64,000 nt of DNA, from assembly GCF_001418015.1 (NCBI RefSeq), contig NZ_LIQG01000026.1, forward strand, positions 496,001 to 560,000. The letters run 5' to 3'. Numbering within the stretch: the stretch's first letter is position 1; each line of letters opens with the position of its first letter. A program made the position numbers and the translations under genes. Shown piece by piece: positions 49,138 through 64,000 of this stretch. Under the pieces are notes generated by a model. The model did not search any database. It saw nothing but the letters and a program-made list of their open reading frames with translations, and was not told the origin of the DNA. The stretch comes from Lacinutrix mariniflava. GTDB lineage: Bacteria; Bacteroidota; Bacteroidia; Flavobacteriales; Flavobacteriaceae.

Positions 49138-49160
49138 AACTTCTTTTCTTCAATATTTTA

Positions 49161-49191
49161 AAAACTCCGAAAGCAATTTCGGAGTTTTTTT
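49161..49191 (+). terminator. terminator of the first T9SS protease
   Basis: 12-bp stem AAAACTCCGAAA/TTTCGGAGTTTT closed by GCAA, T run. Identical in stem and loop to the one at 52247. Confidence 0.93.
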
Positions 49192-49379
49192 ATGGATTAA
49201 AAACATCAGAATATAATGTAGGTTATTCTGTAGTTTATTTTTTTTAAATCAAGTTTCTTAAACCTAATAATCTATAGGTTTTGTAGGGCTATAGAATGAA
49301 TATTAAATAGAATTTTAACACAAAACCTTCAGTTTTATTTTTAACTTTCAGCCTTTAAATAATATTATCATAAACAATC

Positions 49380-52223
49380 ATGAAAAAAACTACATTTACT
49401 TTATGTTTAATGTTTTTTTATTGTCTTACTTCTTTAGCACAACAAAAAAATAGTAATCAAAAAACATCTAAAAATTCGCATCAAGAATTTGAATTAACAG
49501 CAGAAACTATTAACTCAATTAACACAACAGGTTATGCACGTTGTTTAACAGATGAGAATGAAATAGCTTTAAGGAAGCAATTTCCTAACCGTTCAACAAC
49601 TCAAGAATTTGAAGAGTGGTTAGCGCCTAAAGTAGCTAAAATACAAGCAGATAGGTTAGCAGGAAGAACTTCTATGGCAGTTTTTAACATTCCAGTTGTT
49701 ATTCATGTTATTCACAATGGAGATGCTATTGGAACTGGAGAAAACATTACAGATGCTCAAGCCTTATCACAAATTCAAGTAATGAATGAAGATTTTAGAA
49801 GGTTAGCAGGAACAAGAGGAGGATCCAATACTACTGGTGTAGCTGTGGATGTAGAATTAAATTTTTGTATTGCACAAGTAGATGCAAGTGGAGCAGCTAC
49901 AACAGGTGTTGTAAGGCATAATATAACACCATATAGTAACGATGTTGCAGATGGAGCTGGTGGAGCAGATTGGGAGAATCGTGCAGACACAGAGCAAATG
50001 AAAGTTGCAACGCAGTGGGATCCAACAAAATATTTAAACATGTGGACTATTAGAGCAGGAGGATTACCGGTAAATAGTGGAGGTCAATCAGGTCTTTTAG
50101 GTTATGCGCAATTTCCAGACAATACTCCAGGAATAGGCGGTATAAATGCTTCGGGAGGATCTGCAAACACAGATGGTGTAGTAGCGTCATTCGACGCCAT
50201 GGGAACTAACGATTCTAACGATGGTACTTTTCTTTTAAATCCAACATACAACTTAGGTCGTACAATGACGCATGAGGTTGGACACTGGCTTGGTTTAAGA
50301 CATATTTGGGGAGATGGGCCACAAACAGGTAGTTGTGGTGTAGACGATTTTTGTGCAGATACGCCAAATACAGCAGATCCTAATTATACTTGTGATTTAA
50401 CGGCAGATTCATGTACAAGTTCTACAGGAATTGATCAAGTACAAAACTATATGGATTATACAAATGATGCATGTATGGATACGTTTACTCAAAATCAAAA
50501 AGATAGAATCCAAGCTATTATGGGAGCTTCTCCTAGAAGAGTAGAATTAAACACATCTACAGCTTGTACAGTAGAACCGACTATTTATATATCTTCTACA
50601 TTATTAGAAAATATTAATGAAGGTAGTGATTGTGACTTTACAGATGTTGTAATAGATTTAAGTATTGCTACTGCAGCTTCTGCAACAGCAACAGTTAACT
50701 TAATAAATTCTGGAACAGCTACAGAAAATGAAGATTTCGAATTCATTAATAACTCTGTAACAATAGCGGCAGGAGCAACAACTACTAGTAATAGTATAAC
50801 ACTAAGAGTTTTTAACGATAGTTTTGTTGAAGCAGACGAAACTATTAATATAGCAATAAACGTAACTACTACAGGAGATGCTGTTGCAAGTACAAATAAT
50901 TATATTACTACTATTCTTAATGATGATTTTGCAGTAGGAGACACAGCAGAAATTACTCACTTTAGTGACAATTTTGATGATGAAGATGTTTCAGATTGGA
51001 CATTAACAGATAGTGATGGAGATGGTAACAATTGGGGCGATATATTTGCTATTAATAATACAGCTGGTACTCCAGTTACTCCAGTATCATTAATTTCAAG
51101 ATCATGGCAAACTAACCCATTAACACCAGATAACTGGGCTGTTTCACCAGTAATAGATTTATCGTCAGCTAGTGGTGCTATAACATTAAATTGGATAACA
51201 CAAGTTGCTGCGGCATCATTTGATTTAGAAAAATATAGTATACACGTTGGTACAGTTAACGATATCAGTGTTTTAATTAACTCTGCAACTTCTTTAACAG
51301 AAACTTTAGGAGATGCAGGCGATACTGGAGCACCAACACCACATACTTTAGACCTTTCTGCAATGGCTGGACAGGCACAAGTTTATATTGCCTTTAGACA
51401 TTGGGACACTACAGATCAAGATTTTATTTCTATAGATGATGTAACAGTAACTTCAACTGTTGGAATAGACGTGCAAACGACTGTAAATAATGGAACTTTA
51501 GCTAGTAATAATCTTAATGCAGCAGGAAATGCTTTTTACACAGATACTGCATCAGGAAACATTATGCTTGATATAGACAACACGGGAGGTTTCGATTACG
51601 CTTGTACAACAGCTGAAGTTTCAAGAGACGCTGCAACTGCTGGTGCAGATGCTGTAATGTATGTTGGAGGAACAGATCCTTCATCATTTGTAACCGCTAA
51701 AACATTTGATATCACATCTGTAAATTCAAATACTACAGATCAAACAACTGTAACTTTTTATTTTACAGAAAGTGAAATTTCTGGTTGGGAAACGGTTACA
51801 GGAAATAGTAGAAATGATTTATATGCTAAAAATGAAGATACTGCTGATGTAACGTCATTAAGTATTACTCCATTTGGAACAGGTAGTAAATTAACAGGAA
51901 CATTTAATACAGGAGTTGCCGGAACATATTACTTTGGTACTCAATTTTCATTATTATCTACAAACGACGTTAGTTTTGATAATTCTTTCGAGATTTATCC
52001 TAACCCAAACAACGGAAGTTTTAATGTTAAGCTTACGTCTACATCAAATAACATTAGTGTTAAAGTATATGATGTTAGAGGACGTTCTGTTTTTAATAAA
52101 GCATATTCTAATTCAGGAGCATTCAACGAAAACATTAACATAGGAAATGTTCAATCTGGACTATACTTACTTAATGTAAACGATGGAGGAAGAACAGTAA
52201 CAAAAAAGATTATTGTAGAGTAA
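49380..52223 (+). CDS. secreted M43-family metalloprotease with Calx-beta, adhesin-like and T9SS sorting domains
   Basis: 947 residues. Signal peptide to about 20 (T-S-L-A-Q). The pappalysin-like (M43) catalytic domain has N-I-P-V-V-I-H-V-I-H at about 103-112 and the zinc motif H-E-V-G-H-W-L-G-L-R-H at 298-308. A Calx-beta-like domain follows at about 400-510 (A-T-E-N-E-D-F...F-V-E-A-D-E-T-I-N-I). A choice-of-anchor-J/cleaved-adhesin domain is at about 520-695 (D-N-F-D-D-E-D...W-A-V-S-P-V-I-D-L). The T9SS C-terminal domain F-E-I-Y-P-N-P-N-N-G-S-F ends in the same K-K-I-I-V-E as the gene before it. Confidence 0.94.
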   Translation: MKKTTFTLCLMFFYCLTSLAQQKNSNQKTSKNSHQEFELTAETINSINTTGYARCLTDENEIALRKQFPNRSTTQEFEEWLAPKVAKIQADRLAGRTSMAVFNIPVVIHVIHNGDAIGTGENITDAQALSQIQVMNEDFRRLAGTRGGSNTTGVAVDVELNFCIAQVDASGAATTGVVRHNITPYSNDVADGAGGADWENRADTEQMKVATQWDPTKYLNMWTIRAGGLPVNSGGQSGLLGYAQFPDNTPGIGGINASGGSANTDGVVASFDAMGTNDSNDGTFLLNPTYNLGRTMTHEVGHWLGLRHIWGDGPQTGSCGVDDFCADTPNTADPNYTCDLTADSCTSSTGIDQVQNYMDYTNDACMDTFTQNQKDRIQAIMGASPRRVELNTSTACTVEPTIYISSTLLENINEGSDCDFTDVVIDLSIATAASATATVNLINSGTATENEDFEFINNSVTIAAGATTTSNSITLRVFNDSFVEADETINIAINVTTTGDAVASTNNYITTILNDDFAVGDTAEITHFSDNFDDEDVSDWTLTDSDGDGNNWGDIFAINNTAGTPVTPVSLISRSWQTNPLTPDNWAVSPVIDLSSASGAITLNWITQVAAASFDLEKYSIHVGTVNDISVLINSATSLTETLGDAGDTGAPTPHTLDLSAMAGQAQVYIAFRHWDTTDQDFISIDDVTVTSTVGIDVQTTVNNGTLASNNLNAAGNAFYTDTASGNIMLDIDNTGGFDYACTTAEVSRDAATAGADAVMYVGGTDPSSFVTAKTFDITSVNSNTTDQTTVTFYFTESEISGWETVTGNSRNDLYAKNEDTADVTSLSITPFGTGSKLTGTFNTGVAGTYYFGTQFSLLSTNDVSFDNSFEIYPNPNNGSFNVKLTSTSNNISVKVYDVRGRSVFNKAYSNSGAFNENINIGNVQSGLYLLNVNDGGRTVTKKIIVE

Positions 52224-52246
52224 TCTTCTTTTCTTAAAATAAATTT

Positions 52247-52277
52247 AAAACTCCGAAAGCAATTTCGGAGTTTTTTT
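52247..52277 (+). terminator. terminator of the second T9SS protease
   Basis: Same 12-bp stem and GCAA loop as at 49161, 23 nt after the stop codon. Confidence 0.93.
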
Positions 52278-52285
52278 ATGGTGTT

Positions 52286-52378
52286 ACTTTTGCTTCAAAT
52301 AGCAAAAGTCAGGCTATCCGTTATATCTTTTTGAGAAAAACAAAAAGGATGCCACTACTATCCTTAACACAGCGCCAC
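52286..52378. repeat. structured intergenic element, probable dispersed repeat
   Basis: Two hairpins in tandem: ACTTTTGCT (52286-52294) with AGCAAAAGT (52301-52309), and a stem near 52325-52351 between TATCTTTTTG and CAAAAAGGAT. The intervening words GGCTATCCGTTATATC and GGATGCCACTACTATCC resemble an element I recall as frequent between genes in Flavobacteriaceae genomes. That is memory, not a search result. Confidence 0.45.
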
Positions 52379-52407
52379 ACTTAAAAATAAAATAATAACT
52401 TAGCATC

Positions 52408-53526
52408 ATGAATTTATCTTACTGGGAAATAAAAACATGGCTAACCAACATAGACTATACAATTGTTGGAAGCGGCATAGTAGGCTTAAATTGTGCATTA
52501 CAATTAAAAGAAAAATACCCAAAAGCTAACATTCTTATATTAGAAAAAGGCTTTCTGCCACAAGGCGCAAGTACAAAGAATGCAGGCTTTGCTTGTTTTG
52601 GTAGTTTAAGTGAGATTTTAAGCGATTTAAAACAACATAGTCAAGATGAAGTCTTAGAACTAATAAAGCAAAGACAAGAAGGTTTAAAACGTCTCAGAGA
52701 AACTTTAGGAGATATTAAAATAGATTATAAAGCATTAGGAGGCTACGAATTGTTTTCAGAAAAAGACAATGCATTATTCCAAGACTGTCTTTCTAAAAGA
52801 GAAGAGGTAAATCAATTACTAAAACCATTATTTAAAGCAGATGTTTTCAGTTTAAAACCAAACACTTTTCAATTTAAAAATATAAAAGAAAATTATATAT
52901 TCAATAAGTTCGAAGGACAAATAGATACAGGTAAAATGATGGAAGCCTTACTTGAGAAAGTACAAGCAAAAGGCATTAAAATATTAAATAATATTACCGT
53001 AGATTCGTTTTTAGACAATAAAAGTTCAGTAGATGTTAAAACAAATCAATTCGAATTTACTACATCTAAACTATTAATTGCGACAAATGGTTTCGCCTCA
53101 CAATTAATAAAAGAAACCGTAAAGCCTGCAAGAGCTCAAGTATTAATAACAAAACCAATTAAAAACTTACATATAAAAGGAACGTTCCATTTAGATGAAG
53201 GCTATTACTATTTTAGAAACATAGATAATAGAATATTGTTTGGTGGCGGAAGAAACCTCGATTTTAAAACTGAAGAAACCACCCAATTATCACAAACAGA
53301 TCTCATTCAAAATAAGTTAGAAGAGATACTTAAAACCACAATATTACCTAATACACCTTTTCAAATAGAACATAGATGGAGCGGAATTATGGGCGTTGGA
53401 AGTCAGAAAAAGCCAATAGTAAAACAGTTAAGCAATAATGTGTTTTGTGGAGTAAGATTAGGAGGAATGGGAGTTGCAATAGGTAGCACTATTGGAAAAC
53501 AATTAGCAGATATTACTTGTAACTAA
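52408..53526 (+). CDS. DAO-family FAD-dependent oxidoreductase
   Basis: 372 residues. Rossmann FAD-binding start Y-T-I-V-G-S-G-I-V-G-L-N-C-A-L-Q-L (G-x-G-x-x-G) with E-K-G-F-L-P-Q-G-A-S-T-K-N-A-G-F after it, the D-amino-acid oxidase/GlpO layout. The C-terminal part has R-I-L-F-G-G-G-R-N, H-R-W-S-G-I-M-G-V-G and F-C-G-V-R-L-G-G-M-G-V-A. Substrate unknown. Stop codon directly abuts the mtgA start (53526/53527), so the pair is translationally coupled. Confidence 0.88.
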   Translation: MNLSYWEIKTWLTNIDYTIVGSGIVGLNCALQLKEKYPKANILILEKGFLPQGASTKNAGFACFGSLSEILSDLKQHSQDEVLELIKQRQEGLKRLRETLGDIKIDYKALGGYELFSEKDNALFQDCLSKREEVNQLLKPLFKADVFSLKPNTFQFKNIKENYIFNKFEGQIDTGKMMEALLEKVQAKGIKILNNITVDSFLDNKSSVDVKTNQFEFTTSKLLIATNGFASQLIKETVKPARAQVLITKPIKNLHIKGTFHLDEGYYYFRNIDNRILFGGGRNLDFKTEETTQLSQTDLIQNKLEEILKTTILPNTPFQIEHRWSGIMGVGSQKKPIVKQLSNNVFCGVRLGGMGVAIGSTIGKQLADITCN

Positions 53527-54213
53527 ATGAAAAAATTTTTCGAGTTTATAATTAAAGTTTTCTTTTGGAGCGTAGCATCTTCTATTGCTTTAGTTGTTGT
53601 CTTTAAGTTTGTGCCAGTACCAATAACACCACTAATGGTGATTCGTTATTTTGAAAATCCTTCAGAAAAACAACTATGGAAACACAATTGGGAACCCATA
53701 GAAAATATCTCTATAAACATACAATTAGCTGTAATTTGTACCGAAGATCAAAAGTTTTTAAACCACAATGGTTTCGATATTGAAGCTATAGAAAAGGCTT
53801 ACGAGCACAATAAAAAAGGGAAACGCATAAAAGGAGGAAGCACTATAAGTCAGCAAACAGCAAAAAATGTGTTTCTTTGGCCAAACCGTAGTTGGTTGCG
53901 CAAAGGTTTAGAAACCTATTTTACTTTTTTAATTGAAAAAATTTGGAGTAAAGAACGCATTATTGAAGTCTATTTAAACAGTATAGAAATGGGAAATGGT
54001 ATTTATGGTATTGCAGCAGCATCTCATTATTGGTTTAATAAACCAGCAGCTAAATTAACAGCTTACGAGGCAGCAGCAATAGCATCTATATTGCCAAACC
54101 CAAGAAAGTATCGTGCAAATCCAGCGTCCCAATACATTGAGAAAAGGAAACAATGGATTGTAAATCAAATGAATTTTTACGGTGTTTTAAATTATAAAAC
54201 TAAAGATGAATAA
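53527..54213 (+). CDS. mtgA: monofunctional peptidoglycan transglycosylase
   Basis: 228 residues, one N-terminal membrane helix, glycosyltransferase family 51 domain. Catalytic region I-C-T-E-D-Q-K-F-L-N-H-N-G-F-D with the catalytic Glu, then R-I-K-G-G-S-T-I-S-Q-Q-T-A-K-N-V-F-L-W, and K-E-R-I-I-E-V-Y-L-N-S-I-E-M-G. No transpeptidase domain follows. Polymerises lipid II at the inner membrane. Overlaps the next gene by eight bases. Confidence 0.94.
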   Translation: MKKFFEFIIKVFFWSVASSIALVVVFKFVPVPITPLMVIRYFENPSEKQLWKHNWEPIENISINIQLAVICTEDQKFLNHNGFDIEAIEKAYEHNKKGKRIKGGSTISQQTAKNVFLWPNRSWLRKGLETYFTFLIEKIWSKERIIEVYLNSIEMGNGIYGIAAASHYWFNKPAAKLTAYEAAAIASILPNPRKYRANPASQYIEKRKQWIVNQMNFYGVLNYKTKDE

Positions 54214-54667
54214 ATTAGAAAATATAAAGCAAGTACTCTATAATAAGTGTGTTCAGTTTACAAAAAACAGACTGGATACAATTAATAAAACAATTGAAGA
54301 ATTACAAGAATCTTTAACCTCCGAAACCAAAAGCAGCGCAGGAGATAAGCACGAAACTGGTCGTGCAATGGTTCATTTAGAACGTGAAAAAGCAGGAGAG
54401 CAATTAGCCGAAATTCAGAAAGTAAATCACTTATTAGCTAAAATAAGAACAGAAAAAACGTCTAATGTTATTGGTTTAGGAAGTGTTGTCTTCACTACAA
54501 ACGCTAATTATTATATAGCAATTAGTGCAGGTGAATTAGAATTTAATGATCAAAAATTCTACGCTATTGCAGCCAATACTCCAATTGCACAATTAGTATT
54601 AGGAAAAAAAACGGGAGACCAAATTAAGTTTAGAAATCAAGAATTTACTATAACAAATGTTAACTAA
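54206..54667 (+). CDS. GreA/GreB-like protein (coiled coil plus FKBP-like C domain)
   Basis: 153 residues. An N-terminal coiled coil (about 1-75) contains S-L-T-S-E-T-K-S-S-A-G-D-K-H-E-T-G-R-A-M. The C-terminal V-I-G-L-G-S-V-V-F-T-T and T-P-I-A-Q-L-V-L-G-K-K-T-G-D-Q-I match the GreA C-domain pattern S-P-L-x-x-x-L-x-G-K-x-x-G-D. The acidic tip residues of a true GreA cannot be assigned with confidence, so its action on RNA polymerase is not certain. Such proteins are sometimes mislabelled 3-oxoacyl-ACP synthase. Overlaps mtgA by eight bases. Confidence 0.8.
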   Translation: MNKLENIKQVLYNKCVQFTKNRLDTINKTIEELQESLTSETKSSAGDKHETGRAMVHLEREKAGEQLAEIQKVNHLLAKIRTEKTSNVIGLGSVVFTTNANYYIAISAGELEFNDQKFYAIAANTPIAQLVLGKKTGDQIKFRNQEFTITNVN

Positions 54668-54721
54668 CTTCTAAATAAACAATTTTCGGGTTATCTTTAG
54701 TAAAATTGAATTAGAAAAAAG

Positions 54722-55858
54722 TTGAATACACTTCCCTTAAATTTTGATGTCATTATTATTGGTGGTGGATTAGCAGGTTTAAGTAGTGCTATCCATTTAT
54801 CTAAAAATAATTGTAGCGTTTTGGTTATCGAAAAAAACACGTATCCAAAACATAAAGTTTGTGGCGAATATATATCAAACGAAGTCTTACCTTATCTCTA
54901 TTATTTAGGAATCGATGTTTTTAAATTAGGAGCTAAAAGAATAAATAAATTCGAGCTATCCACACCCAAAAATAAATTAGTAAAAGCAAACTTACCACTT
55001 GGTGGTTTCGGGATCAGTCGGTTTTGTTTAGATAATGATCTTGCTAAAAAAGCGATTGCGAATAAAGCAGTAGTTATTCAAGACACTGTTGAAGACGTCA
55101 CCTTTGCAAACAATGCATTTTTAGTTAAAACAAAAGAAGCAAATTACTCCTCAAAAATAGTGATTGGTGCTTACGGCAAACGCGCGAATTTAGATGTTAA
55201 ACTTAAACGAAGTTTTATAAAGAACAAATCGCCTTTTCTAGCTGTGAAAACACATGTAAAAGGCAATTTTCCTGAAGATTTAGTTGCGCTTCATAATTTT
55301 GAAGGCGGTTATTGCGGAGTTTCAAAAGTGGAAGACAATAGTATTAACGTTTGTTACATTACTAACTTCGAAGCCTTTAAAAAGTATAAAGATATCGACG
55401 AGTTTCAGGAGAAAGTAGTCTTTAAAAATACGGCTCTAAAATCTATTTTTAAAAACTCAGAACCAGTCTTTAAATCACCTTTAAGTATTAGTCAAATTTC
55501 TTTTGAAACTAAAAATCCAATCGAAAACCATATGTTAATGTGTGGTGATACAGCAGGCATGATTCATCCATTATGTGGAAATGGAATGAGCATGGCAATA
55601 CGCAGTGCTCAAATGGCATCGCTACTTATTATTAAGTTTTGTAATGGTGAAATAAAAAACCGAAAAACTTTAGAAAAGCAGTATATTAGAGAGTGGAATG
55701 CAGAGTTTAAATTGCGTCTAACAACAGGTCATATTGTTGCTAATTTATTTAGTAAAAACAAATTAGCCGAAGTGTTAATTAGCATTGTAAAGTGGTTTCC
55801 TTTTATTCTACCACAAATTATTAAGCGAACACATGGTAAATTAATGAACGTTAAATGA
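54722..55858 (+). CDS. FAD-dependent oxidoreductase (geranylgeranyl-reductase/UbiH-like)
   Basis: 378 residues from a TTG start. FAD motif V-I-I-I-G-G-G-L-A-G-L-S-S-A (about 10-23) and P-K-H-K-V-C-G-E-Y-I-S. Second FAD segment M-L-M-C-G-D-T-A-G-M-I-H-P-L-C-G-N-G-M (about 270-288). The C-G-E segment is that of geranylgeranyl-reductase-like flavoproteins, which include hydroxylases of phenolic lipids. The family fits a role of hydroxylating or reducing the polyketide product, which is inferred from context. The stop overlaps the next start (ATGA), so it is coupled to the methyltransferase. Confidence 0.88.
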   Translation: MNTLPLNFDVIIIGGGLAGLSSAIHLSKNNCSVLVIEKNTYPKHKVCGEYISNEVLPYLYYLGIDVFKLGAKRINKFELSTPKNKLVKANLPLGGFGISRFCLDNDLAKKAIANKAVVIQDTVEDVTFANNAFLVKTKEANYSSKIVIGAYGKRANLDVKLKRSFIKNKSPFLAVKTHVKGNFPEDLVALHNFEGGYCGVSKVEDNSINVCYITNFEAFKKYKDIDEFQEKVVFKNTALKSIFKNSEPVFKSPLSISQISFETKNPIENHMLMCGDTAGMIHPLCGNGMSMAIRSAQMASLLIIKFCNGEIKNRKTLEKQYIREWNAEFKLRLTTGHIVANLFSKNKLAEVLISIVKWFPFILPQIIKRTHGKLMNVK

Positions 55859-56571
55859 GTCTATTGATTAACACAAAATATAGAAGTGAAGCGGAAGAGA
55901 TTATGGACGATTTGGACTATAATGGTCCAATATTACATGATGCTCTAAATAAGTTAGCAAAAATAAACCAGTGGTTAGGTGGAAATATAGTCACCATAAA
56001 CGGATTGAAAAAAGCATTAAAACAACATTCAAAAACAGAAACGATTACTATTATCGATTTAGGTTGCGGTGGAGGTGACATTTTAAGAGCGGTCTCGCTA
56101 TTTGGAAAAAAAAACAATTACAAGTTTAAATTAATAGGTATAGATGCCAATCCACACACCGTAAATTACGCTAATAAATTATCGCAAAATTACGATAATG
56201 TAGAGTTTCAAGAGATAGATATTTTTTCGGAAGCTTTTAATAATTTAGAATACGATTTAGTATTAACAACATTGTTCCTTCATCATTTTAAAGAAGGCCA
56301 ATTGGTTTCATTTTTAAAACCAGTGCTAGAAAAAGCCAAATTAGGAATAGTTGTTAATGATTTACACAGACATAAATTAGCTTATTATTTGTTTAAGTTG
56401 TTATGCACAACGATAAAGAATAAGACTATTGTTGAAGACGGATTGACTTCAGTATTAAGAGGGTTTAAAAGAAACGAACTTATAGCTATTTCAGAAAAAA
56501 TAAATGCAGCGTATCAAATACAATGGAAATGGGCATTTCGTTTTCAATGGATTTTAAAAAACAGAAACTAA
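55855..56571 (+). CDS. class I SAM-dependent methyltransferase
   Basis: 238 residues. SAM-binding motif I I-I-D-L-G-C-G-G-G-D-I-L at about 62-73, then L-I-G-I-D-A-N-P-H (motif II), E-Y-D-L-V-L-T-T-L-F-L-H-H-F (motif IV region). The N-terminal Y-R-S-E-A-E-E-I-M-D-D segment is typical of a flavobacterial methyltransferase group next to type III PKS genes. Likely O- or C-methylates the polyketide lipid; inference from the operon. Confidence 0.88.
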   Translation: MSLLINTKYRSEAEEIMDDLDYNGPILHDALNKLAKINQWLGGNIVTINGLKKALKQHSKTETITIIDLGCGGGDILRAVSLFGKKNNYKFKLIGIDANPHTVNYANKLSQNYDNVEFQEIDIFSEAFNNLEYDLVLTTLFLHHFKEGQLVSFLKPVLEKAKLGIVVNDLHRHKLAYYLFKLLCTTIKNKTIVEDGLTSVLRGFKRNELIAISEKINAAYQIQWKWAFRFQWILKNRN

Positions 56572-56675
56572 ATAATTTAAAATAATAAGAATCGGCTTTG
56601 CAATCGCATTGCTTGGCAAGTAAACGTCAGTGAATCTCTGTGATAATTCAGCGAAACGCTGTGTAACAAAAAAGT

Positions 56676-57728
56676 ATGAGCGTAAAAATAACAGCAGTAG
56701 CCAAACAATTACCAAAATACACAAGAGAGACTAAGGATATTATTCCGTATTTAAAACTATGGATGACAGGCCAAGACGAGCGTTTTCAGCGTAAAGTGAT
56801 TAAGCTTTTTGAGAACGCAGGAGTAGATAGACGTTACTCTATAATGGACGCCGAAGAAGTGTTTTTTAAAACCTCTTTTCAAGAGAAAAACGATATCTAC
56901 GCTCGCGAAGTCGTTAAATTAGCAGAGCAATCTTTGGTAAAAGCATTAGATAAAGCTAAGCTTAAACCTACAGATATAGATTATATTATTACGGTTAGTT
57001 GTACAGGAATTATGATTCCTTCTGTGGACGCTTACCTGATTAATAATCTAAAAATGAAACAAGATATCGTAAGACTTCCAGTAACAGAAATGGGTTGTGC
57101 TGCAGGTGTTTCAGGTATTATTTATGCTAAAAACTTTTTAAAAGCAAACCCAAATAAACGCGCAGCAGTTATTGCTGTAGAGTCTCCAACAGCAACATTT
57201 CAGTTAGATGATTTTTCAATGGTTAATATTGTAAGTGCTGCTATTTTTGGTGATGGAGCTTCCAGTGTTATTTTATCGTCTTATAAAGATGAGGAAGGAC
57301 CAAAAATTATTGACGAAGCCATGTATCATTTTTACGATGCCACAACTATGATGGGTTTTAAACTCGTAAATACAGGCTTACAAATGATTTTAGATAAGGC
57401 TGTTCCAGAAACTATTTCAGAACACTTTCCTATGATTGTACATCCGTTTTTAGAACGAAATAATATGGCGATTGAAGATATCGATCATTTAATTTTTCAT
57501 CCAGGTGGAAAAAAAATAGTACAAACCGTCGAAGACTTGTTTGGATCTCTTGGAAAGAATATTGACGACACCAAAGACGTGTTAAAACAATACGGAAACA
57601 TGAGTAGTGCTACAGTTTTGTATGTTTTAGAACGTTTTATGGATAAAAAATTACCAAAAGGAGATAGAGGTTTAATGCTAAGTTTTGGGCCAGGTTTTTC
57701 GGCTCAACGCATTTTATTAGAGTGGTAA
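56676..57728 (+). CDS. type III polyketide synthase
   Basis: 350 residues, chalcone-synthase superfamily. Complete catalytic triad: Cys141 in T-E-M-G-C-A-A-G, His275 in F-H-P-G-G-K, Asn308 in Y-G-N-M-S-S-A-T. Also S-V-D-A-Y-L-I-N, G-D-G-A-S-S-V-I-L, and the C-terminal L-S-F-G-P-G-F-S-A. The G-F-S-A-Q ending and G-P-G-F match bacterial type III PKS. Condenses malonyl-CoA units onto a fatty acyl starter to give pyrones or resorcinols; here the starter may come from the ACP-based enzymes downstream. It is the signature gene of the cluster. Confidence 0.95.
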   Translation: MSVKITAVAKQLPKYTRETKDIIPYLKLWMTGQDERFQRKVIKLFENAGVDRRYSIMDAEEVFFKTSFQEKNDIYAREVVKLAEQSLVKALDKAKLKPTDIDYIITVSCTGIMIPSVDAYLINNLKMKQDIVRLPVTEMGCAAGVSGIIYAKNFLKANPNKRAAVIAVESPTATFQLDDFSMVNIVSAAIFGDGASSVILSSYKDEEGPKIIDEAMYHFYDATTMMGFKLVNTGLQMILDKAVPETISEHFPMIVHPFLERNNMAIEDIDHLIFHPGGKKIVQTVEDLFGSLGKNIDDTKDVLKQYGNMSSATVLYVLERFMDKKLPKGDRGLMLSFGPGFSAQRILLEW

Positions 57729-57740
57729 CAAAAAGAAGTT

Positions 57741-57772
57741 TTGTCATCCTGAATTTGATACAGTATCTCATT
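57741..57772. repeat. fragment resembling a dispersed intergenic repeat
   Basis: TTGTCATCCTGAATTTGATA followed by CAGTATCTCATT, in the gap between the PKS and reductase genes. The word GTCATCCTGA...TCTCAT recurs often between genes of Bacteroidota as I recall. Not confirmed by a search. Confidence 0.35.
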
Positions 57773-57784
57773 AATTAAGAAAAC

Positions 57785-58582
57785 ATGAATAAAGACTTTC
57801 AAGATAAAAACTATTGGGCCTTAATTTTAGGAGGCTCAAGTGGATTAGGTTTGGCAACAGCAAAAAAGCTAGCGAAACATGGTATGAATATTTGTATAAT
57901 TCATAGAAATTCTAGAGCGAAAGAAGAAGAAATAGCTTTAGCATTTAGCAGTATTAAAACGGAAGGTGTGCAGTTTCAATCTTATAACGTAGATGCTTTT
58001 AAGGTTGAAAAACGAGAACAAACCATTTCAGAATTAAAAGCTATTTTAGGAAGTAAAGGTAAAATTAGAACCTTAGTGCATAGCGTTGCTAAAGGAAATT
58101 TAAAACCAATGATTTCTGAAGGCAAGCCAACGTTAAAAAACGATGATTTTAATTTAACAATTAACGCCATGGCAATTAGTCTATACGATTGGACTATAGC
58201 ACTTTTTGAAGCTAAATTATTTGCAAAGGATTCTCGAATTATTAGCTTTACAAGTGAAGGGAATACCAAAGCGTGGCAAAATTACGCAGCAGTATCTGCG
58301 GCAAAAGTAACGTTAGAAGCCATAACAAGAAACATTGCGTTAGAGTTTGCGCCTTTTGGAATTAGAGCCAATTGTATTCAAGCAGGAGTTACCGATACTG
58401 CTTCTTTGCGCATGATTCCTGGAAGCGAACAAATAAAAGAACACAGTTTAAAACGTAATCCATTTAAACGGTTAACACAGCCGGAAGATGTTGCGAATGC
58501 AGTTTATTTACTATGTAAAGATGAAGCCAGTTGGATTAATGGTTGCGTAATTCCGGTGGATGGTGGCGAACATATAAGTTAG
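57785..58582 (+). CDS. FabL-like enoyl-ACP reductase (SDR)
   Basis: 265 residues, Rossmann fold with G-G-S-S-G-L-G at 16-22. The catalytic motif is Tyr167-x6-Lys174 (Y-A-A-V-S-A-A-K), the spacing of enoyl-ACP reductases FabI and FabL and not the Y-x3-K of ketoreductases. C-terminal P-F-G-I-R-A-N-C-I-Q-A-G-V-T-D-T-A-S and G-C-V-I-P-V-D-G-G-E fit FabL-like enzymes. Most likely it saturates the acyl chain in the type II line next to the PKS. Confidence 0.82.
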   Translation: MNKDFQDKNYWALILGGSSGLGLATAKKLAKHGMNICIIHRNSRAKEEEIALAFSSIKTEGVQFQSYNVDAFKVEKREQTISELKAILGSKGKIRTLVHSVAKGNLKPMISEGKPTLKNDDFNLTINAMAISLYDWTIALFEAKLFAKDSRIISFTSEGNTKAWQNYAAVSAAKVTLEAITRNIALEFAPFGIRANCIQAGVTDTASLRMIPGSEQIKEHSLKRNPFKRLTQPEDVANAVYLLCKDEASWINGCVIPVDGGEHIS

Positions 58583-58637
58583 AGTAATTGACTTTATGGG
58601 TTTTAAAAACGTGTGAGGTCTAAATAAAACTAGGACA

Positions 58638-59075
58638 ATGACAGCAAGCCAAATAATAAAATGTTTACCATATCAAGAACCCTTTCTGTTCGTTGATGCA
58701 TTAACGGCGTTTTCTTCGGAAGGCATAACAGGAAGCTACACTTTTAAAAACGATGAGTATTTTTATAAAGGGCACTTTAAAAATAACCCAATAACTCCAG
58801 GTGTTATTTTAACCGAATGTATGGCGCAAATTGGTGTTGTGTGTTTAGGTATTTATATGCTGAAAGATGAAATCAATGAAGAAAATAAGCCGCAAATAGC
58901 CTTAACATCTAGTCAAGTGGACTTCTTTTTACCAGTATTTCCGGGAGAGAAAGTGATTGTGGTTTCAGAAAAAGAAGTCTTCAGATTTAATAAATTAAAA
59001 TGTAAAGTAAAGTTATTAAATGAAAAAGGCGAGTTGGTTTGTCGTGGACAAATTTCGGGAATGTTAAAAGCATGA
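58638..59075 (+). CDS. 3-hydroxyacyl-ACP dehydratase, FabZ-like
   Basis: 145-residue hotdog-fold protein. Predicted catalytic His46 in Y-K-G-H-F-K-N-N-P-I-T-P-G-V and Glu60 in L-T-E-C-M-A-Q, the same 14-residue spacing as in E. coli FabZ. Start C-L-P-Y-Q-E-P-F-L-F-V-D matches L-P-H-R-x-P-F-L-x-V-D. Dehydrates hydroxyacyl-ACP; probably part of the cluster's chain-building line. Confidence 0.88.
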   Translation: MTASQIIKCLPYQEPFLFVDALTAFSSEGITGSYTFKNDEYFYKGHFKNNPITPGVILTECMAQIGVVCLGIYMLKDEINEENKPQIALTSSQVDFFLPVFPGEKVIVVSEKEVFRFNKLKCKVKLLNEKGELVCRGQISGMLKA

Positions 59076-59117
59076 AAATTAGATTTTCGCTTTCGCGGAA
59101 ATGAAAAAAAGAAATAA

Positions 59118-60380
59118 ATGAGAGTAGTAATCACAGGTTTAGGAGTCGTTGCACCAAATGGTGTGGGAATAGACGCGTTTACTAAAGCCATAAAAAATGG
59201 CGAATCGGGCATTACATTTCATCAAAATTTAGCCGATTTAAATTTTTCGTGCTGTATTGGTGGAATACCTCAAATTTCCGAAGAAAAAAAAGGAGCGTAT
59301 TTAACACCTTTACAACTTAGAGGTTTTAATAGTTCTGGTATTTTATACGGTTGCATGGCTGGAATGGATGCATGGAAAGATGCAGGATTTAAAATAGACT
59401 CAGAAAGCGATTTGGACTTCGATAGTGGAACCGTTTTTGGAACAGGAACCTCTGGCGTAGAAAAATTTAGAGAAGCCATTTACAAGCTCGACGACAAACA
59501 AGTAAAACGATTAGGAAGCACAGTCGTTGTGCAAACCATGGCAAGTGGCGTTAGTGCTTTTTTAGGTGGAATATTAGGTTTAGGAAACCAAGTAACTACA
59601 AATTCCTCAGCTTGTACAACAGGAACTGAAGCCATTTTAATGGGTTACGAGCGTATTAAAAACGGACAAGCAAAACGGATGCTTGTTGGTAGTTGTAGTG
59701 ACGATGGTCCATATATTTGGGGTGGATTTGATGCCATGCGAGTCATGACTTATAAACATAACGAATCACCAGAACAAGGCTCAAGACCAATGAGTGCAAG
59801 TGCATCAGGTTTTGTTCCTGGCTCCGGAGCAGGTGCTTTGGTTTTAGAGTCTTTAGAAACTGCATTAGAGCGTAACGCAACAATTTATGCTGAGGTTTTA
59901 GGAGGTAATATTAATTCAGGAGGACAAAGAAATGGTGGAACCATGACCGCGCCAAATGCTAAAGCTGTACAACGTTGTATTAAAGATGCTATAAAAAATG
60001 CAGGGATTACTGCTAAGGAGATTGATGTAATAAATGGTCATTTAACCGCAACTTCTAAAGATGGTTTAGAGATTGAAAACTGGACCAAAGCACTAGACCG
60101 AAAAGGTGGTGACTTTCCATATATTAATTCTTTAAAATCTATGGTTGGACACTGTTTGTCTGCAGCAGGAAGCATTGAAAGTGTTGCAACAGTACTTCAA
60201 ATTAAGGAGCAATTTGTGTTTCCTAATATTAATTGTGACGATTTGCATCCTGATATTTCACAATTAATTTCCGAAGAAAAAATTGTAAAAAAACTTTTAA
60301 AGACAGAGGTGAACATTGCTGCTAAAGCCAGTTTTGGTTTTGGCGATGTAAATGGTTGTGTTATCTTTAAAAAGTATTGA
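59118..60380 (+). CDS. beta-ketoacyl-ACP synthase II-like (FabF-type)
   Basis: 420-residue thiolase-fold condensing enzyme. Catalytic triad Cys166 in S-S-A-C-T-T-G-T, His308 in N-G-H-L-T-A-T, His345 in V-G-H-C-L-S-A-A-G. In the H-G-T-x-T motif the Gly is replaced by Leu (H-L-T-A-T). No acyltransferase domain. Elongates acyl-ACP with malonyl-ACP, giving the lengthened starter or a dedicated lipid chain. 42 bp after the dehydratase. Confidence 0.9.
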   Translation: MRVVITGLGVVAPNGVGIDAFTKAIKNGESGITFHQNLADLNFSCCIGGIPQISEEKKGAYLTPLQLRGFNSSGILYGCMAGMDAWKDAGFKIDSESDLDFDSGTVFGTGTSGVEKFREAIYKLDDKQVKRLGSTVVVQTMASGVSAFLGGILGLGNQVTTNSSACTTGTEAILMGYERIKNGQAKRMLVGSCSDDGPYIWGGFDAMRVMTYKHNESPEQGSRPMSASASGFVPGSGAGALVLESLETALERNATIYAEVLGGNINSGGQRNGGTMTAPNAKAVQRCIKDAIKNAGITAKEIDVINGHLTATSKDGLEIENWTKALDRKGGDFPYINSLKSMVGHCLSAAGSIESVATVLQIKEQFVFPNINCDDLHPDISQLISEEKIVKKLLKTEVNIAAKASFGFGDVNGCVIFKKY

Positions 60381-60402
60381 GTATTGCCAAATTTGAAATA
60401 AA

Positions 60403-60432
60403 CTGTCACACTGAGCTTGTTGAAGTGTTTCG
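60403..60432. repeat. fragment resembling a dispersed intergenic repeat
   Basis: CTGTCACACTGAGCTTGTTG followed by AAGTGTTTCG between the ketosynthase and ACP genes. It resembles the CTGAGCTTGTCGAAGT word I recall as common between genes in this phylum. Not confirmed by a search. Confidence 0.35.
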
Positions 60433-60466
60433 TTTTTTTTACTAAACTACTAATTGATAAATACAC

Positions 60467-60721
60467 ATGACAAAAGAAGAATTAATTGCCAAGCTAAAAA
60501 CGATCGTTCAGCCTTATATTCAAAATGAAGAGGCGTTTAATAATTTATCTGAAAACACAGATTTTATAAACGATCTAAAAATAAATTCTGCAAATTTAGT
60601 AGATGTTATTCTAGATGTCGAAGACGAATTTGATATTAGAATTGAAAATGACGATATGGAAAGAATGGTGTCTGTAAAAGCAGCAATGGATATTGTTAAT
60701 GAGAAATTAGCAGAAAAATGA
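60467..60721 (+). CDS. acyl carrier protein of the type III PKS cluster
   Basis: 84 residues, four-helix ACP. The phosphopantetheine Ser is Ser41 in D-L-K-I-N-S-A-N-L-V-D (the usual D-S-L is N-S-A here), followed by D-V-E-D-E-F-D-I-R-I. It differs enough from housekeeping AcpP to be a dedicated carrier. The stop overlaps the phosphopantetheinyl transferase start (ATGA), so ACP and its activator are coupled. Confidence 0.9.
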   Translation: MTKEELIAKLKTIVQPYIQNEEAFNNLSENTDFINDLKINSANLVDVILDVEDEFDIRIENDDMERMVSVKAAMDIVNEKLAEK

Positions 60722-61311
60722 TAGGCAATGATATTGTCGATTTAAAACAAGCAGCCTTAGATTCTCCCGATAGTTATCCGGATGGCAAAAGGCATCTGCG
60801 GTTTTTAGAGAAAGTTTTTACGGTAAAAGAACAAGACCTTATTATAGCTTCGGAAGATAAACACCAAACGGTTTGGTTGCTTTGGAGCATGAAAGAAGCG
60901 GCTTATAAAGTGAATGTACAGCAGTTTGGGAAACGATTTTTTAACCCAAAACGGTTGGAGTGTGAGCTTGTTTCTAATGAAAAAGGAATGGTAAAAATTG
61001 ATATCGAAACCTATTTTACGAGCTCTAAAATAACCGAAGATTATGTATATACTGTTGCAACCTTAAAAGAAGAAAGTAGTTTTAAAACGCATTGTTTTAA
61101 AGCGAAGAAATTAAACTACAAATTACAATCTGAAGTTTTAAAACAACAGTTTTTAAAATCTGTTGCTAAAAATAAAAATTACAACCTAAAGACTTTAAAG
61201 ATTAAAAAATCTGAAGTTGGAGTTCCTAAAGTTTATCGTGACTTAAAAAGGTTGCCTATTAACTTTTCTTTGACGCATTGTGGTCGGTTTTCTGGGTTTG
61301 TTTATTTGTGA
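60718..61311 (+). CDS. 4'-phosphopantetheinyl transferase
   Basis: 197 residues. Begins M-I-G-N-D-I-V-D-L (AcpS/Sfp G-x-D motif) and has W-S-M-K-E-A-A-Y-K (the W-x-x-K-E-A-x-x-K motif). Transfers phosphopantetheine from CoA to the Ser of the ACP encoded just upstream. Ends the cluster. It is unlike a short AcpS only in being longer, hence a cluster-specific Sfp/AcpS intermediate form. Confidence 0.9.
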   Translation: MIGNDIVDLKQAALDSPDSYPDGKRHLRFLEKVFTVKEQDLIIASEDKHQTVWLLWSMKEAAYKVNVQQFGKRFFNPKRLECELVSNEKGMVKIDIETYFTSSKITEDYVYTVATLKEESSFKTHCFKAKKLNYKLQSEVLKQQFLKSVAKNKNYNLKTLKIKKSEVGVPKVYRDLKRLPINFSLTHCGRFSGFVYL

Positions 61312-61357
61312 AAAATAAAAAAGCAGACCAACTAACGTCAGTCCACTTTTCACCTTT

Positions 61358-62833
<1,476 letters not shown>

Positions 62834-62837
62834 TTAT

Positions 62838-62913
62838 CCTGCAAGGTTTCCAAAACCTTGTAGGTGTGGTTTTTATGTTTATTAAACCTACAAGGTTTTG
62901 GAAACCTTGCAGG
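62838..62913. repeat. REP-like 28-bp perfect inverted repeat
   Basis: A 28-base arm at 62838-62865 starts CCTGCAAGGTTTCC and ends CCTTGTAGGT. It has an exact reverse complement at 62886-62913, with a 20-bp AT-rich loop. Each arm is itself an imperfect palindrome (CCTGCAAGGTTT/AAACCTTGTAGG), so the element can fold as a large hairpin or a pair of small ones. It resembles REP/BIME elements; similar words are, from memory, widespread in Bacteroidota. Confidence 0.85.
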
Positions 62914-63168
62914 AGTAAAAGCTAATATGATTCTGCAATACTGAAATAAATTAAGTATGAGCATGTTAAGAATGACAATTATTTATAGCGAGCATACACC
63001 GCGTAAGCGATTGATGCGGCATCCTTTTTAAAACGATTTAAAACCTAACATTATTAAGAAGTAGAATTTGGCAGATTGCCACGTACTTTGTCCTCGCAAT
63101 GACGTTTTAAAAAGATATAGCGGAAAGCGCGACCCAAACCTTTTTTTGGTTTGGGATACGCCATAAGC
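62914..63168. repeat. repeat-rich spacer between rtcB and the slipin gene
   Basis: No coding sequence. It contains a GATTGCCACGT...CCTCGCAATGACG word (63074-63104) and GCGTAAGCGATTG and GCGGAAAGCGCG words. The hairpin CCCAAACC, seven T, GGTTTGGG lies at 63133-63155, just past the slipin stop. These look like degraded members of dispersed intergenic repeats. Confidence 0.5.
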
Positions 63169-64000
63169 TTACTTATTTACCGAGAAAATATCTTTTAATT
63201 GCTCGATTACATTACCATTTCCAGCCACTGTAATTTCGCCGATTTTATCAGCAATTTTCTCTACATACTCCATTTCTTTTAATTTAAACAACATGTTGTT
63301 GTCTTCCATTAATTTTGCGGTGTTTAATAAGCTACGTGTTGCAGCTGTTTCTTCTCGTCTTGTTACCACATTGGCTTGCGCTTTTTTGTGTGCAATTAAT
63401 ACTTGGTTCATGATTTCTTTCATGTCGCCTGGTAAAATGACGTCTCTAATGCCAGCATGCAATACATGGACACCCAGTTTTGTGGCTTGTGCTTTTACAT
63501 CTTGTAAAACGGCGTTGGCAATGGTTTCTTTTTGCTCTAACAATTCGTCTAAGGTGTAAGCACCAACAAAGGCTCTTAATGCCAATTGCAAGGTGATGTA
63601 CAATTGCTTTTCGTATTCTTTATTTCGCATTAACGCCGTTTCGATATCTGTAACTTTGTATTGTGCGTAAAAGTTAATACGTACGCTTGCTTTGTCTTTA
63701 GTTAACAACTCTTGACCTGCAATTTCTAATTGTAATTGACGTAAATCTGCTTTCGCAATTTTAATGGTTTGATCGTTTCTCCAGAAACGGTATGTACCGT
63801 GTTCTACAATTTTTTCGAACGTATCGTTTACTATTAAAATGGCTTTTTCGTATGCGGCAACTTCGAAAACTCTAATGTATTTACTTAATTGTGGTTTGCT
63901 GAAAATAGCTTTATCAATGTCTTCTGTAATTTCGATTTTGTTTAAATCTGCAGTTACAAATTTGTAATTGATTAAGGTATTCCAGTACGCATAACGACCA
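63169..64000 (-). CDS. slipin (SPFH/Band 7) family protein, N-terminus outside the window
   Basis: The frame is open to the right window edge (about 277 codons present), so the 5' part is missing. SPFH-domain parts are seen in order: R-V-F-E-V-A-A-Y-E-K-A-I, G-T-Y-R-F-W, V-R-I-N-F-Y-A-Q-Y-K-V-T-D, L-Q-L-A-L-R-A-F-V-G-A-Y-T-L-D-E-L, L-G-V-H-V-L-H-A-G-I-R-D-V-I-L-P-G-D-M-K, and A-N-V-V-T-R-R-E-E-T-A-A-T-R-S. Slipins form oligomeric membrane scaffolds. RtcB neighbours of this kind have been described in RNA repair settings. Reading from 63708 alone would begin at a TTG inside the domain. Confidence 0.9.
   Translation of the reverse strand, partial: GRYAYWNTLINYKFVTADLNKIEITEDIDKAIFSKPQLSKYIRVFEVAAYEKAILIVNDTFEKIVEHGTYRFWRNDQTIKIAKADLRQLQLEIAGQELLTKDKASVRINFYAQYKVTDIETALMRNKEYEKQLYITLQLALRAFVGAYTLDELLEQKETIANAVLQDVKAQATKLGVHVLHAGIRDVILPGDMKEIMNQVLIAHKKAQANVVTRREETAATRSLLNTAKLMEDNNMLFKLKEMEYVEKIADKIGEITVAGNGNVIEQLKDIFSVNK

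Follow-up and report, generated by a model that had tools for sequence, protein, structure and literature searches.

The window analysed here, a stretch of 64,000 nucleotides from Lacinutrix mariniflava (contig NZ_LIQG01000026.1), was found to contain an operon of eight open reading frames (ORFs) at positions 54722-61311, all on the + strand (Table 1). The operon is made up of two units. A flavin adenine dinucleotide (FAD)-dependent oxidoreductase, a methyltransferase (MT) and a type III polyketide synthase (PKS) form the unit FAD-MT-PKS, followed by a separate cassette of a short-chain dehydrogenase/reductase (SDR), a hot dog dehydratase (HD), a ketosynthase (KS), an acyl carrier protein (ACP) and a phosphopantetheinyl transferase (PPTase) in the order SDR-HD-KS-ACP-PPTase. 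The cassette probably feeds acyl-ACP to the type III PKS, the alkylated ring then being methylated and oxidised to a phenolic or quinone-type lipid, and the whole is plausibly a widespread variant of the alkylresorcinol/polyketide-quinone operon with an acyl-supply cassette.

Relatives of the PKS were confirmed at 210 loci, and the best 80 of these (81-94% identity) were used, their titles naming mostly genera of Flavobacteriaceae and two of the loci (L014 and L020) being derived from one metagenome-assembled genome. Adequate flank, meaning no less than 2.6 kb before the PKS and 6 kb after it, was present in 66 of the 80 loci. These were found to contain the PKS, FAD and MT genes in every case, followed by HD and KS genes in 64, ACP and PPTase genes in 62 and an SDR gene in 52. 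The FAD and MT genes were accepted solely before the PKS and the other genes solely after it, and KS and SDR matches of <36% identity were excluded; the genes present were colinear in 66/66, the order being tested only within these two blocks. Its recurrence in the 66 adequately flanked relatives shows that the gene set is not a chance arrangement. The 14 loci without SDR were found in Polaribacter (eight), Winogradskyella (three) and others (three).

In the order sample (246 genomes), PKS profile matches were found in 41 genomes at 1e-25, 39 of them above 550 bits, and in the class sample (295 genomes) in 55 at 1e-30, 16 of them above 440 bits, followed by 33 matches at 1e-75 in the phylum sample (395 genomes, the share from outside the class not being given), all listed as within the class. 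Neighbourhoods were examined for 28 high-scoring wider relatives (19 + 9, a subset of the order and class samples), and the 26 with enough flank were found to contain FAD, MT, HD and KS genes in 26/26, ACP in 24, SDR in 20 and a recognisable PPTase in 13. A sequence-only reading of this DNA had likened the type III PKS, methyltransferase and flavoprotein to phenolic-lipid operons, and the likeness was found to hold in 66/66 and 26/26 relatives; by PKS type, as defined with the tree below, FAD and MT accompanied the PKS in 92/92 well-covered type A loci and in 7/7 type B loci (tblastn). PKS profile matches were present in 30 of the 40 own-family genomes among those listed, a frequency that points to a basic lipid of membrane or redox function and not to an occasional antibiotic.

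The KS profile was searched at 1e-90 in the class sample, where 22 copies were found in 21 genomes. A KS was present at 0.45-1.4 kb from a high-scoring PKS (>440 bits) in 16/16 genomes, and the discrete type II enzymes that had been noticed beside the PKS are thus a near-constant partner of this PKS clade (KS in 64/66, 26/26 and 16/16). Six KS copies in five genomes (G250 twice, G310, G332, G356 and G407) did not adjoin such a PKS. Of their neighbourhoods, L139 and L141 contained ACP-SDR-HD-KS-PPTase next to apparent housekeeping genes, whereas L140 (1-5588 of a 5.9 kb contig) contained FeeM-SDR-KS-FabH-HD-ACP-PPTase (FeeM by Pfam, 104.8 bits), suggesting acyl-ACP made to order for an N-acyl amino acid. 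L142 (8775-18565) contained SDR-HD-KS and a weak PPTase match, with no ACP detected in this cassette, divergent from a block containing DarB (634.8 bits, the cut-off being 550), a BtrH-like protein and, by eye, ABC-transporter genes; it is possibly a dialkylresorcinol or flexirubin locus. In L143 KS-ACP-PPTase was accompanied by a PhyH dioxygenase, the KS standing at the very start of the contig, and L144 contained HD-KS-ACP-PPTase with a gene resembling the PhyH gene of L143. Both FeeM and DarB make use of acyl chains, and the presence of the cassette beside them is the main evidence that it makes acyl-ACP, coupled in the window to a type III PKS. The earlier suggestion of acyl-chain delivery is thereby strengthened, and the hand-over to the PKS is what we infer from the operon.

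The description of the cassette as the PKS's own fatty-acid line was found to be right as to the discrete type II enzymes and too broad as to completeness, because the operon contains no ketoreductase (KR) and no FabH. A complete type II fatty-acid synthase, with KS, KR, dehydratase, enoyl reductase and ACP together, is not present in the operon for lack of the KR, and the cassette members vary as well, the SDR being missing in 14/66 and 6/26 relatives and a recognisable PPTase in 4/66 and 13/26. The source genome (3.97 Mb, 99.97% complete; copy counts at the thresholds used) was found to contain one other FabF-type KS, directly preceded by the sole other ACP match, as well as one further FabA/Z domain, carried on a frame of 472 residues that is probably an LpxC-FabZ fusion, and one other ACPS-superfamily gene. 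With a single other KS, FabA/Z, ACPS and ACP match in the genome, the operon genes look like dedicated second copies. The only FabG over cut-off was found on another contig (C17) and a FabH-like KASIII elsewhere in the genome; as the operon duplicates the KS, dehydratase, ACP and PPTase without KR or FabH, other genes would be needed for ketoreduction and initiation.

All 25 cassette KSs of the KS tree (19 beside a PKS, including that of the window, and six elsewhere) were found to contain GHLT[A/S]T at the position where FabF-type enzymes usually read HGT. The genome's own FabF contained HGT, and GHLT[A/S]T was found in 0/5 background enzymes. The cassette KS family was split from the background enzymes with support of 100/100, the branch between them measuring 6.18 changes per column, and the KSs adjoining a PKS formed one group, except that the KS of L142 fell among them on a long branch. 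A wider proposal, which we consider rather unlikely, is that the GHLT[A/S]T KS marks a portable Bacteroidota acyl-ACP cassette for varied chain users, namely the type III PKS (the commonest form seen), DarB, the FeeM N-acyltransferase and perhaps sugar or lipid loci, and that with the PKS it yields a polyketide quinone acting in many flavobacteria as a second, non-menaquinone electron carrier or as an antioxidant membrane lipid.

The PKS was found to match PF00195 and PF02797 over cut-off and belongs to the type III (chalcone/stilbene synthase) family. The C141-H275-N308 triad named from the sequence was correct and was invariant in 23/23 aligned sequences, the window included, and the Y-x6-K named in the SDR was found to be Y167/K174, invariant in 16/16. 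In Foldseek the PKS model (mean predicted local distance difference test score, pLDDT, of 88.2) matched type III PKSs with a template modelling (TM) score of about 0.9. The nearest solved folds were CylI (resorcinol-forming) and PKS11 (alkylpyrone), which shared the top places and are both enzymes of long chains, CylI being solved with a beta-ketoacyl substrate, whereas by sequence the best solved relatives were PKS11, then THNS, then CylI. The PKS tree contained 40 rows, made up of the window, 17 of the 28 examined type A enzymes, all seven type B and all five type C enzymes, and as references eight type III PKSs of solved structure, the ChsA of a Sphingobium and a KASIII outgroup, without ArsB, ArsC, HidC, SrsA and PkqA; several long branches meet in it. 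The clades were separate for type A (with KS; 92/100), type B (96/95) and type C (PKS-ICMT; 100/100). Type B comprised PKS-MT-FAD operons without the cassette, in that order in 6/7, the FAD gene of L131 being placed before the PKS.

The position equated with ArsB Trp281/ArsC Gly284 was found to contain Phe (F228) in 18/18 type A enzymes and Trp in 12/12 enzymes of types B and C. The mapping was inferred from spacing, as ArsC Gly284 and Met293 are nine apart and F228 and M237 likewise; the M237 position in type A contained Met in 16/18 and Ile in 2/18. An aromatic residue at ArsB Trp281 favours aldol closure to resorcinols (PMC6274091; the papers cited here are represented by excerpts, to which the statements on them refer).

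In the proposed pathway, the PPTase would activate the private ACP and the KS would extend the chain on it, each step being processed by the dehydratase, by the FabL-like reductase in those operons that have one, and by the housekeeping FabG. The type III PKS would take the finished acyl-ACP, extend it with malonyl-CoA and close the chain-bearing ring, more likely a resorcinol than a pyrone. The MT and the FAD enzyme would methylate and hydroxylate or oxidise the ring, which may give a methoxy-hydroquinone or quinone-type membrane lipid.

Known systems share parts of this arrangement. DarB systems, which form dialkylresorcinols and flexirubins, feed acyl chains to a resorcinol-forming enzyme, and the cassette relative in L142 stands beside DarB, whereas the window PKS is not of the DarB family (30.3 bits against the cut-off of 550; the search covered the window PKS only and not the rest of the genome). 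The fatty-acid part of the Azotobacter ars operon is a type I multidomain enzyme, whereas the window operon contains discrete proteins together with MT and FAD enzymes; none of the ORFs that overlap 48000-64000 has the size or composition of a type I multidomain fatty-acid synthase. The likeness to ars lies in a fatty-acid synthase placed in one operon with type III PKSs, and the fatty acids on the ACP domain of ArsA pass directly to ArsB/ArsC (PMC6274091). CylI, the nearest fold to the window PKS, is a type III PKS that, as proposed for the window, receives its chain from an ACP, and its product is a resorcinol (PMC8086630). The cylindrocyclophane chain is built by two type I PKSs on decanoyl-ACP with a halogenase, in place of the type II cassette of the window.

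The tailoring genes have counterparts in other type III PKS operons. Planctomycete PKSs from MT-oxidoreductase-PKS operons, or variants of these, gave alkylresorcinols in Corynebacterium, two planctomycete PKSs without such an operon yielded no product, and MT-FAD-type III PKS operons were linked to alkylresorcinols in Planctomycetota and to hierridins in cyanobacteria (PMC10896814). These hidABC/planctomycete operons resemble that of the window in containing a type III PKS, one MT and one oxidoreductase per operon, but in the order MT-oxidoreductase-PKS instead of FAD-MT-PKS, and the excerpts of PMC10896814 mention no KS, dehydratase, reductase, ACP or PPTase there. PKS-MT-oxidoreductase operons of Streptomyces and mycobacteria (pkqABC/srsABC) make polyketide quinones, their PKS, MT and oxidoreductase leading to alkyl benzoquinones, but comprise three genes with no type II acyl cassette in the excerpts (PMC9927152). 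In a comparison of 66 genomes, 9% of the flavobacterial clusters were type III PKS clusters (PMC7440613), and in a count across 2,680 Flavobacteriaceae genomes their share of the gene clusters was 10.74%, with no product tied to them in the excerpts (PMC10734526). Searches in one open-licence library showed, among the listings and passages seen, no description of this gene set, of the cassette or of a product, subscription journals, antiSMASH and MIBiG not being searched. The gene content tells chemists which type of product to seek and, if the proposed supply of acyl-ACP is true, discrete type II acyl supply would be added to the known loading modes of type III PKSs and would be useful for engineering chain length.

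The supply of acyl-ACP to the PKS was weighed against other uses of the same genes. The PKS could start from malonyl-CoA or a short acyl primer and form a small aromatic, the chain from the cassette being joined later or serving another product. Among NCBIfam models the PKS matches DpgA best, in sequence THNS ranks second among the distinct solved enzymes, and C109 is common to the PKS and THNS, though also to all seven type B enzymes; moreover, the type A clade of the tree contains no characterised enzyme, and to our knowledge none is known from this PKS clade. The nearest folds, however, are those of the long-chain enzymes CylI and PKS11, the KS lies within the short interval given above in 16/16 genomes, and no ligase or acyltransferase was noticed among the recurring neighbours, which were not systematically profiled, so that a small aromatic was judged quite unlikely. 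That the same machinery makes an alkylpyrone, decorated by the MT and the FAD enzyme, was judged unlikely: the best solved sequence match, PKS11, is a methyl-branched alkylpyrone enzyme according to its deposition title, but the invariant F228 occupies the inferred position of ArsB Trp281, where an aromatic residue favours aldol closure, and the described operons that include an MT and an oxidoreductase lead to resorcinols and quinones (PMC10896814, PMC9927152).

A hand-over like that of CylH/CylI, in which the beta-ketoacyl-ACP of the KS is taken as a diketide by the PKS and fewer malonyl units are added, is a variant of the acyl-ACP supply favoured here and overlaps with it. CylI, the nearest fold, was solved with a beta-ketoacyl substrate and the operon contains a KS but no ketoreductase, whereas the dehydratase is retained in 64/66 relatives, so that reductive cycles probably occur and the diketide hand-over is decidedly unlikely. 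The cassette might also be a spare or stress-regulated fatty-acid system which shares the operon incidentally, as its place beside apparent housekeeping genes in two genomes (L139 and L141) would allow; with the KS beside the PKS in 64/66 and 26/26 well-covered relatives and in 16/16 class genomes, this is highly improbable.

Several observations weigh against a cassette that loads a lipid-forming PKS. The operon contains no ketoreductase; two loci (L024 and L053) contained FAD-MT-PKS-SDR while HD, KS, ACP and PPTase were not found, and two others (L040 and L080) were without ACP and PPTase. Three of the six KS copies without the PKS were on short contigs or in incomplete genomes (the 5.9 kb contig of L140; completeness of G310 83%, of G407 85%; the contig of L143 beginning at its KS), which makes the absence of the PKS less certain there. 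The type A clade stands beside the references with none of them inside and is given no firm deep place by the tree, and the best NCBIfam match, DpgA, has a non-lipid product, although at 172.5 bits against a cut-off of 425 the PKS falls outside the DpgA family. The residue matching PKS18 Cys205 (of the long-chain tunnel; located through the C205F entry) was proline in 18/18 type A enzymes, whereas the other non-KASIII rows contained Cys, Ser or Thr. PKS11 was found to contain a bulky Trp in the position proposed to set the ring type, yet it makes a pyrone, and the argument from F228 is weak for this reason. Relatives of the FAD enzyme were found on Bernardetia and Hymenobacter plasmids without an annotated type III PKS nearby, and the YceI and MMPL genes found near the operon in relatives are absent from beside it in the window.

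Table 1. Genes of the operon in the window, with their positions, strand and the basis of assignment.
Gene product	Position	Strand	Basis
FAD-dependent oxidoreductase, geranylgeranyl-reductase/UbiH-like superfamily; probable ring hydroxylase/oxidase	54722..55858	+	profile matches, AlphaFold model
S-adenosylmethionine (SAM) methyltransferase (MT), PRK06202 type	55855..56571	+	130.7 bits against model cut-off of 243
Type III PKS, catalytic C141/H275/N308	56676..57728	+	Pfam, alignment, tree, fold search
SDR, FabL-like enoyl reductase, Y167-x6-K174	57785..58582	+	NCBIfam, alignment
FabZ-like dehydratase (HD, hot dog)	58638..59075	+	Pfam, NCBIfam; H46 and E60 in 17/17
Ketosynthase (KS), distinct family with GHLT[A/S]T for usual HGT	59118..60380	+	NCBIfam; C166, H308, K340 and H345 in 22/22
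Acyl carrier protein (ACP), serine 41 in N-S-A	60467..60721	+	Pfam PP-binding, NCBIfam
Phosphopantetheinyl transferase (PPTase)	60718..61311	+	ACPS superfamily profile match

The eight intact rightward genes proposed from the sequence were all present in the ORF list at the same coordinates, and the proposed ATGA overlaps were found at FAD/MT (55855) and ACP/PPTase (60718), the remaining intergenic gaps being 42 to 104 bases by ORF coordinates. The FAD gene starts with TTG, and its exact start is uncertain for this reason. The names given earlier agreed with the Pfam and NCBIfam profile searches for all eight proteins. The NCBIfam scores were below the curated cut-offs for FabL (151/328 bits), FabZ (71/113), FabF (266/494), ACP (49/70), the PPTase domain (26/45) and the DpgA model of the PKS, and the operon proteins are accordingly relatives of the named families and not clear members. 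The PP-binding Pfam match of the ACP was exactly at the cut-off (20.8 bits), and its serine stands in N-S-A in the absence of the classical DSL motif. No Rfam match at the gathering threshold was found within the operon, and promoter-like sites were not enriched over shuffles (31 against a mean of 27.9, standard deviation 4.9).

The AlphaFold model of the FAD enzyme was confident (pLDDT 90.2). Its nearest folds were flavin halogenases, with 3-hydroxybenzoate 6-hydroxylase also present among the 50 matches listed, in all of which identity was at most 22%; these folds are compatible with ring oxidation by the modelled enzyme. W-x-W-x-I-P is a halogenase motif, and as it was not seen by eye in the FAD enzyme, a halogenase assignment was not adopted. 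On the Hymenobacter plasmid (L146:5068-10077) an isonitrile synthase and a TauD dioxygenase precede the relative of the FAD enzyme, which shows that this flavoprotein family is not confined to type III PKS operons. A Psychrobacter plasmid was found to contain a type III PKS with MT and FAD, the only one of the three inspected FAD/MT plasmid neighbourhoods to do so, and Paracoccus NZ_CP040763.1 contained matches to the PKS, the MT and the FAD enzyme that are consecutive according to their coordinates. A second kind of Bacteroidota type III PKS operon (L113, L128, L133, L129, L130 and L132) contained a UbiA-like prenyltransferase, PKS, MT and FAD without the cassette, the UbiA assignment being based on Pfam in L133, on inspection by eye in L113 and L128, and on ORF length and place in L129, L130 and L132; judged by these genes, its product might be prenylated resorcinols. 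Two further genes, one for another methyltransferase and one for a small membrane protein without a Pfam match (c49), joined the operon in L031, L035, L044, L052 and L114, hinting at a doubly methylated product.

In 33/66 relatives a YceI gene (110.9 bits by Pfam in L017) stood no more than about 8 kb from the PKS, often directly before the FAD gene, and in 14/66 a gene for an MMPL exporter (111.3 bits by Pfam in L054) was found near the operon; these neighbours may have a possible role in transport. Three YceI genes were found elsewhere in the source genome. The operon gaps of some relatives were occupied by small genes resembling, by eye, REP-type transposases and GIY-YIG proteins (L003, L043, L051, L072 and L080; L005, L013, L024 and seven more).

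In the window, a GreA-like gene that ends at 54667 lies before the operon, and a convergent RtcB-family gene follows it at 61358-62761 (ORF list, Pfam). The GreA-like gene belongs to an upstream trio at 52408-54667, which contained a DAO-like oxidoreductase and a transglycosylase-like protein, both recognised by eye, followed by the GreA-like protein. The DAO-like gene was near the PKS in 62/80 and the GreA-like gene in 60/80 flavobacterial loci, the latter being found in 1/26 of the more distant loci, and since the trio is hardly present in these it was not counted as part of the operon. The region is flanked by two Flavo-1 RNA matches at 52303-52372 (-) and 62983-63138 (+).

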